DNA of 64,000 bases, taken from an uncultured SAR86 cluster bacterium (GTDB lineage Bacteria; Pseudomonadota; Gammaproteobacteria; Magnimaribacterales; D2472). The notes beneath the pieces are model-generated. The model had not been told where the DNA came from. It was given only the letters and a program-made list of their open reading frames with translations, and ran no database searches. Shown here piece by piece: positions 14,266 through 47,885 of the stretch. Positions within the stretch are counted from its first letter, which is position 1; each line of letters begins with the position of its first letter. A program made the position numbers and the translations under genes. The stretch lies in assembly GCA_902520495.1 (NCBI GenBank), contig CABYNW010000005.1, positions 1 to 64,000 of the forward strand. The letters are read 5' to 3'.

Positions 14266-14856
14266 ATGAAAGATAAAAGATTTTTAATTATATTGCCATT
14301 ATGTTTTTTGATGCTATTTAATGGAAAAAAATACGATGAAGCTGTTAAAGATAGATTATTGGTCCCTGTAAAAGTTTGTTTAGAGGGTCAGGACTGTGGC
14401 AATGCAGCAACAGCAAGTCAATCTGTTGTCTCGACGGCTCCAATAGAAGTAAAGAAGATAGAGCTTTCTGAAGGTTCAGAACATACAGTTAAGATGTTAA
14501 ATACTGGTGAAGGTGGCCAGATGATATTTGAACCTGCTGTTATAAAGGTATCTAAAGGAGATACCATCCACTTTAAGGCAGTGGACGCCTCTCATAATTC
14601 TGCAACTATTGAAGGAATGATTCCTGTTGGTGCTAATGCATGGAATGGACAAATAAATACGGATATAAGTATTACTTTAGATACAGAGGGTGTTTATGTT
14701 TATCAATGCGACCCTCATGTAATGATGGCAATGATAGGAGTTATTCAGGTAGGCGAAGCTATTAATTTAAATGAAGTAAAAGAAGCATCTCAAAAGATTA
14801 AATCTAATTTTGTAATGAATGCTGAAAGAATCGATACCTATTTAAGTCAGCTTTAA
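14266..14856 (+). CDS. cupredoxin/pseudoazurin-like copper protein
   Basis: H...YQCDPHVMMAMIGVIQVG type-1 copper motif (Cys-X2-His-X2-Met). Confidence 0.75.
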   Translation: MKDKRFLIILPLCFLMLFNGKKYDEAVKDRLLVPVKVCLEGQDCGNAATASQSVVSTAPIEVKKIELSEGSEHTVKMLNTGEGGQMIFEPAVIKVSKGDTIHFKAVDASHNSATIEGMIPVGANAWNGQINTDISITLDTEGVYVYQCDPHVMMAMIGVIQVGEAINLNEVKEASQKIKSNFVMNAERIDTYLSQL

Positions 14857-41718: not shown

Positions 41719-41788
41719 AATATTTCTCCAAATTTAGGTAGAAAAAGCATTATACATAAAAAAAATACAATTTATTTTATAAATAAGG

Positions 41789-41816
41789 TTGATAATTAAT
41801 TATAACTATATATAAT
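41789..41816 (+). promoter_or_regulatory. sigma70-like promoter (TTGATA-16 nt-TATAAT)
   Basis: -35 ttgata 41789-41794; -10 tataat 41811-41816. Confidence 0.6.
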
Positions 41817-41822
41817 AATTGT

Positions 41823-41899
41823 TGTCAGCACTCCTCTCCCCTATTAGATTTTGCTGACACTCTGGAAATGTGGAGGGCTTAGCCCTCCATATCTTTTTT
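41823..41899 (+). ncRNA. candidate structured small RNA or leader attenuator, C-rich loop plus intrinsic terminator
   Basis: 8-bp stem tgtcagca/tgctgaca (41823-41830/41852-41859) with loop starting ctcctctcccc; second stem tggagggc-tta-gccctcca followed by ctttttt. Confidence 0.6.
41868..41899 (+). terminator. intrinsic terminator
   Basis: atgtggagggc tta gccctccatat c tttttt. Confidence 0.75.
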
Positions 41900-41913: not shown

Positions 41914-42000
41914 ATGGATAAAATTAGAGATAATATTGAAATAATCTTTTTAATAACTGTTTTTGTATCTTCATTGTCAGCTATTACTCCGATTACATAG
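41914..42000 (+). CDS. 28-aa putative single-TM microprotein
   Basis: ATG after gaaagg: MDKIRDNIEIIFLITVFVSSLSAITPIT*; ends 14 nt before the gpx start codon. Confidence 0.4.
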   Translation: MDKIRDNIEIIFLITVFVSSLSAITPIT

Positions 42001-42014
42001 CTACACTAATAAAT

Positions 42015-42536
42015 ATGAATAAATTCTTTATATCGTTTCTATTTTTCCCTTCTTTGATATTTGCATGCTCTGATATTCTAAATACTGAAATGCGTTTGCT
42101 AGATTCATCTGAAACAATAAACCTATGCAAGTATGAAGATCAGGTAATGCTTGTTGTCAATGTTGCCAGTAGATGCGGATACACATATCAATATGCTTCT
42201 TTACAAAATCTATATGATGAATACAAAGACGATGGTTTCGTTGTAGTAGGAGTTCCATCTAGAGATTTTATGCAAGAATACTCTAACGAAGAAGATGTTG
42301 CAGAATTTTGTTCAACTGAATATGGGGTAAATTTTCCTATGCTTTCAACTTCAAAGGTTAGAGGCAAGAAAGCTAATCCATTTTACAAAAAGCTTATTGA
42401 GGAAAGTGGCTATAGTCCTTCCTGGAATTTTAATAAATATTTAATCTCTAGAGATGGCAATGTTGTATCTACATTTGGCTCAAAAGTTAAACCTGACTCT
42501 AAAGAGCTTACTGCAAAAATCGAAGAACTTCTTTGA
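42015..42536 (+). CDS. glutathione peroxidase family protein
   Basis: VNVASRCGYTYQYASLQNLYDEYKDDGFVVVGVPSRDF, signal peptide; Cys-type active site. Confidence 0.9.
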   Translation: MNKFFISFLFFPSLIFACSDILNTEMRLLDSSETINLCKYEDQVMLVVNVASRCGYTYQYASLQNLYDEYKDDGFVVVGVPSRDFMQEYSNEEDVAEFCSTEYGVNFPMLSTSKVRGKKANPFYKKLIEESGYSPSWNFNKYLISRDGNVVSTFGSKVKPDSKELTAKIEELL

Positions 42537-47662: not shown

Positions 47663-47681
47663 AAATTTTGCAAAGGCTACA

Positions 47682-47848
47682 AACCAGATCACCGCTATGT
47701 GTTATACCTGAACCGAATGTTCAGGTGGTGAATATCATGTCAGATCAGGCTTCCCTTTTAGGTATTGCTCAACAAAGACAGTGGAAAATCACCTAATTAT
47801 TAGTATCGGTTCAAATTTATTAACACATTAGCAAATGAACCAGAATGC
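47682..47848 (-). ncRNA. ssrS: 6S RNA
   Basis: Between zapA and 5-FCL gene (conserved locus); minus strand GGTGA...GAGCA...AGAAGCCT-like...ATTCACC hairpin followed by CCTGAACattcgGTTCAGG; ATGTGTTA/TAACACAT closing pairing; TATACT -10 about 7 nt upstream. Confidence 0.85.
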
Positions 47849-47885
47849 TAATTAAGTATAGTTGAGTTCAAATATAAGATAAAGG

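Follow-up and report, generated by a model that had tools for sequence, protein, structure and literature searches.

A candidate trans-acting small RNA upstream of gpx in SAR86 bacteria with predicted pairing to the proteorhodopsin leader

Results

Organization of the locus

The window analyzed here is a stretch of 64,000 nucleotides from a 1.09-Mb, SAR86-type genome. On its forward strand, a gene for an exported glutathione peroxidase-family protein (gpx, 42015-42536; PF00255, E 7.6e-28), a conserved neighbor of the element under study, is preceded by a conserved 28-aa hydrophobic micro-ORF, MDKIRDNIEIIFLITVFVSSLSAITPIT (41914-42000), which lies 3' of a compact block of two hairpins and has a counterpart in family f4 of the same order. 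Upstream of the hairpins, a sigma70-type promoter carrying a conserved control box, TTTATAAATA-n-TTGATA-16-TATAAT (41774-41817), was assigned by its position weight matrix score and an alignment of 47 copies; inspection of the sequence places TTGATA at 41789-41794 and TATAAT at 41811-41816, separated by a spacer of 16 nt. The 5' hairpin (41823-41859), identified by folding and compensatory changes, consists of an 8-bp stem, formed by TGTCAGCA (41823-41830) and TGCTGACA (41852-41859), and the 21-nt loop CTCCTCTCCCCTATTAGATTT (41831-41851), which includes the C-rich CUCCUCUCCCC. The C-rich core of this loop, CUCCUCUCCCCUAUU (41831-41845), is the predicted seed for mRNA pairing, based on the conservation of CUCUCCCC. 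An intrinsic terminator (41870-41899) follows, with the arms GGAGGGC (41872-41878) and CCCTCC (41883-41888) and a T6 tract at 41894-41899; its assignment is based on the sequence, the fold and the stem changes in f4 described below. Promoter, stem, C-rich loop and U6 terminator were all located where a preliminary description of the locus had put them, except that the gap between promoter and stem is 6 nt instead of 7, a trivial difference.

An 81-nt stretch covering the block folds into the two hairpins with -29.7 kcal/mol (z = -5.29), and none of 200 shuffled sequences was equally stable. The G+C content of the block is 45% vs 32% in the window, in agreement with the earlier impression that it stands out as GC-rich. 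The micro-protein encoded between the RNA and gpx is conserved as MxKxxDNIEIIFLxxxFxSSLSAITPxT and has no match in Pfam. Elsewhere in the window, a 6S RNA (RF00013, 53.5 bits) is located at 47677-47849 on the reverse strand.

Conservation and distribution of the RNA

A DNA search detected the block 5' of gpx in 30 of the 34 genomes of the genus. With a first covariance model, the RNA was found in about 99 of the 107 genomes examined of family f1 (E<=0.01), and a second model also retrieved it from family f4, again 5' of gpx; at every locus where coordinates were compared, the homologue was positioned upstream of this gene. When 26 diverse copies were aligned, 96% of the cells were paired, and double-sided changes occurred in 10 of the 13 pairs. 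The observed covariation was matched by none of 500 shuffles, and shifting the partner by one column reduced pairing to 42-47%. The covariance check proposed in the preliminary description thus yielded stem conservation and covariation far beyond chance. The loop core CUCUCCCC is nearly invariant and present in 25 of the 26 copies. In f4, the terminator reads GGGGC-UUCG-GCCCC in place of GGAGGG/CCCUCC; since the letters are replaced while the pairing is kept, it is the structure and not the sequence that is conserved there.

No such RNA was found at gpx in families f2 and f3, in which an L,D-transpeptidase-like gene immediately precedes gpx, and a covariance search of about 366 other gammaproteobacteria gave no convincing match. 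The matches inspected outside f1 and f4 turned out to be terminators only. The gap between the convergent genes polA and engB of f3 harbors a hairpin, CCCGTCAGCATYTCTCTCCCCTGAAAAYTGCTGACGGG, whose stem and loop core are those of the RNA (G055:C2:24643-24710 and G097:C1:280336-280403); despite this similarity (E 1e-4 to 1e-3), it was rejected as a homologue, as it is situated at a convergent gene end and without promoter box. Nothing in Rfam 15 scored above the gathering threshold, the best sub-threshold E value being 0.61. Judged by these searches, the RNA is a new, previously uncatalogued family present in two families of the SAR86 order.

Additional copies of the RNA

In genera g2, g3 and g13, the RNA is encoded a second time, near sbcB and apart from gpx, and genome G168 has a third copy that adjoins an alternative oxidase gene, with a CsoR-like gene nearby. 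Both the sbcB-adjacent and the third copies retain loop and promoter, which speaks for an action in trans and against a role solely as gpx leader. Its own promoter, its own terminator and a conserved accessible seed are features generally expected of a trans-acting base-pairing small RNA, as is conserved complementarity to a target leader, which was found for proteorhodopsin (see below). None of 60 genomes of the order had an Hfq match above the cut-off, whereas positive controls were detected, which points to an Hfq-independent small RNA. As single-sequence searches for ProQ and CsrA in genome G034 gave no match either, pairing of the loop must probably work unaided.

The promoter box and a candidate regulon

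The control box TTTATAAATA-TATTGATA is unusually conserved upstream of the -10 element in the 47-copy alignment (consensus TTTATAAATAn(n)TATTGATAATnnATTATAARTA). The corresponding matrix scored 42.0 at the RNA vs -11.9 at the next best site in the window. A scan of 1.2 Mb of G034 returned only three strong sites (scores 43-54; maximum in the reversed sequence 2.6), namely the two RNA copies and a pseudoazurin gene (identified by TIGR02375). In G063, of which 800 kb were scanned, the RNA site was the only strong box. The box is located 5' of pseudoazurin in most genomes of the genus, and in many of them the ATG follows TATAAT by only 5-9 nt, suggesting nearly leaderless mRNAs; in g13 and g16, it lies about 365 nt upstream of the gene. 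A second pseudoazurin paralogue, inside a frame of about 200 aa at 14473-14853 of the window (forward strand), has no promoter box. Weaker forms of the box were found at the alternative oxidase gene (PF01786) of G034, with a score of 10.9 vs a null maximum of 4.8, and, in one f4 genome, before an alternative oxidase-pseudoazurin operon in which the alternative oxidase comes first. The occurrence of the box at the RNA and pseudoazurin and, in weaker form, at the alternative oxidase suggests a respiratory regulon. A loose three-part version of the box was not enriched genome-wide (159 matches vs 178 in the reversed control), and we therefore do not claim sdhA, ETF-QO and petA as members.

With regard to the regulator, Fur is present but seems disfavored, because its canonical boxes (GATAATGATAATCATT-like), located at a TonB receptor gene and a bacterioferritin/Dps-like gene, are unlike that of the RNA. 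OxyR is likewise disfavored: an OxyR-like gene adjoins katG in G034, but there is no matching box between the two. Searches of G034 with single query sequences revealed no homologue of FNR, CueR or CsoR.

Complementarity to the proteorhodopsin leader

The proteorhodopsin leader contains GGGGGAG 35-50 nt before the start codon and an AGGAGU ribosome-binding site, and these two elements complement the two halves of the RNA loop. When duplex energies of the loop with the region from -60 to +90 were computed for 1163 genes of G034, the proteorhodopsin leader ranked first (-25.9), with UAAUAGGGGGAG pairing with CUCCCCCUAUUA and GGAGU of the ribosome-binding site with ACUCC. For G063 and its own RNA, proteorhodopsin again ranked first among 769 leaders, drawn from 60% of the genome and from the proteorhodopsin locus; target prediction for the loop had been among the checks suggested beforehand. 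Among the leaders of each of these two sets, GGGGGAG occurs in that of proteorhodopsin only. In G000, the genome of the window, proteorhodopsin (-18.8) surpasses all 68 leaders of the window, the next best reaching -15.1. Shuffled loops attained -24 to -25 as the best of a single genome, so that the energy in one genome proves little by itself and the case rests on conservation.

The leader element recurs in six genera having the RNA (g1, g2, g13, g14, g15 and g17), with predicted pairing of -18 to -26 kcal/mol through a match that is either bipartite or 9 nt long. In g3, g16 and f4, the ribosome-binding site is itself G-rich, with GGGAGAG in g3, only GGGGG in g16, and GGGGGA or GGGGAGA in f4. 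No such G-rich element was seen in the proteorhodopsin leaders of g12 and g18, nor an upstream G5 element in those of f3, which is without the RNA. In f2, GGGAGAG serves as the proteorhodopsin ribosome-binding site even though the searches did not detect the RNA in this family, and part of the G-richness may thus predate the RNA. In full-length cofolding, the loop took part in the pairing for G034 and G063, whereas it did not for G000, where it has four Cs. A search for G-tract patterns in 36 genomes was uninformative, since a read-backwards control gave as many matches. As further features of proteorhodopsin leaders, a hairpin (GAGUAA/UUACUC or similar) directly follows the G5 element, and the AGGAG ribosome-binding site in the leader at locus L270 has a possible alternative partner in a GCUCCU segment. 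Taken together, proteorhodopsin is the best-supported candidate target of the RNA.

Discussion

We consider it probable that 41822-41899 encodes an Hfq-independent trans-acting small RNA of about 75 nt that is expressed from the control-box promoter, pairs with the proteorhodopsin leader and lowers its translation, with read-through into the micro-ORF and gpx. The RNA would be made from the sigma70-type promoter, whose control box is common to the pseudoazurin gene, and end at its own terminator. Hairpin 1 would present the unpaired loop ACUCCU-CUCCCC(C)UA. The most likely partners in the proteorhodopsin leader are GGGG(G)GAG for the 3' half of this loop and the AGGAGU ribosome-binding site for its 5' half. 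Such pairing, occurring without Hfq, would block ribosome access, so that proteorhodopsin translation would fall when the RNA is made, presumably in response to a respiratory or redox signal. Transcripts from the control-box promoter that read through the terminator probably supply the micro-ORF and gpx as well. It is possible, although we regard it as tentative, that one regulator turns on pseudoazurin, alternative oxidase and the small RNA, and that the latter shuts down the light-driven proton pump proteorhodopsin, coupling respiration to phototrophy. The idea of a C-rich-loop small RNA, already put forward in the preliminary description, agrees with the covarying stems, the near-invariant loop core, the conserved promoter and the unlinked paralogous copies; neither the proteorhodopsin target nor the promoter shared with pseudoazurin had been foreseen.

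An anti-Shine-Dalgarno small RNA acting in trans on many targets, with proteorhodopsin as one of many or an incidental one, appears rather unlikely to us. The loop does complement generic AGGAG/GGAGAGG sites, its other good matches include TonB receptors and metabolic genes, and Yfr1, which contains ACUCCUC, has many targets (PMC6778093). Against this stands that proteorhodopsin alone ranks first in both G034 and G063 and that its G5 element, conserved in six genera, lies away from the ribosome-binding site.

The preliminary description had also raised the alternative of a conditional attenuator, i.e. a 5' leader of the micro-ORF-gpx operon in which the loop and the GGAGGG terminator arm form an antiterminator. 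The constant position 5' of micro-ORF and gpx, with no room for another promoter, speaks for it, and in all copies checked the 5' arm of the terminator complements the loop with -8 to -10 kcal/mol. As the main function of the locus, attenuation is nevertheless improbable: the two stems are separately stable, and a structure in which the loop is made to pair with GGAGGG is 20 kcal/mol less stable (-9.5 vs -29.7 kcal/mol), which leaves no antiterminator of competing stability; even before the 3' arm is made, the antiterminator reaches only -8.1 vs -15.1 kcal/mol. Moreover, the unlinked, sbcB-adjacent copies keep the complementarity between loop and terminator arm even though no gene follows that could be attenuated. 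With a distance of only 14 nt between U-tract and micro-ORF, we still consider read-through into the latter and into gpx likely. That the element is a simple 5' UTR hairpin plus terminator devoid of a regulatory role would suit a short RNA with an ordinary terminator, but is hard to reconcile with a near-invariant loop on a covarying stem across two families and with duplicated unlinked copies, and we deem it highly improbable.

The proposed small RNA resembles Yfr1 and Yfr10 of marine cyanobacteria in being short, in belonging to a streamlined marine genome and in combining the heptamer ACUCCUC with a 3' terminator. In Yfr1, the motif ACUCCUCACAC is unpaired between two stems (PMC2190773), and in Yfr10 a stem carries the motif in its loop (PMC6778093). 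The SAR86 motif is likewise placed in a stem-topping loop, as in Yfr10. Unlike in Yfr1, it continues as UCCCCCUA inside the hairpin loop, the loop within hairpin 1 being ACUCCUCUCCCC(C)UA; the host phylum is unrelated and there is no Rfam match. By analogy, the RNA would work like Yfr1 and Yfr10 but is not homologous to them. CcsR and other CCUCCUCCC-motif stress RNAs of alphaproteobacteria also occur in several sibling copies and have C-rich loops that can pair with ribosome-binding sites. The SAR86 RNA is similar in its C-rich loop and sibling copies but differs in loop and structure, host class and the lack of an Rfam match. OxyS of E. coli is a 109-nt, Hfq-dependent RNA divergent from oxyR that can block ribosome-binding sites. 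Like OxyS, the SAR86 RNA adjoins an oxidative-stress function; unlike OxyS, it occurs without Hfq, and no matching box is present at oxyR-katG of G034.

Searches of the literature consulted here on SAR86 small RNAs and on small-RNA control of proteorhodopsin returned nothing on point. To our knowledge, no small-RNA control of a microbial rhodopsin has been known before, and the present case, if true, would be the first. SAR86 bacteria, which rank with the most abundant ones in the sunlit ocean, have very few regulators. The RNA described here may let these cells lower their proteorhodopsin level, as suggested by the complementarity, and a conserved RNA predicted to pair so sharply with the proteorhodopsin leader would offer a concrete mechanism by which SAR86 could control this protein.
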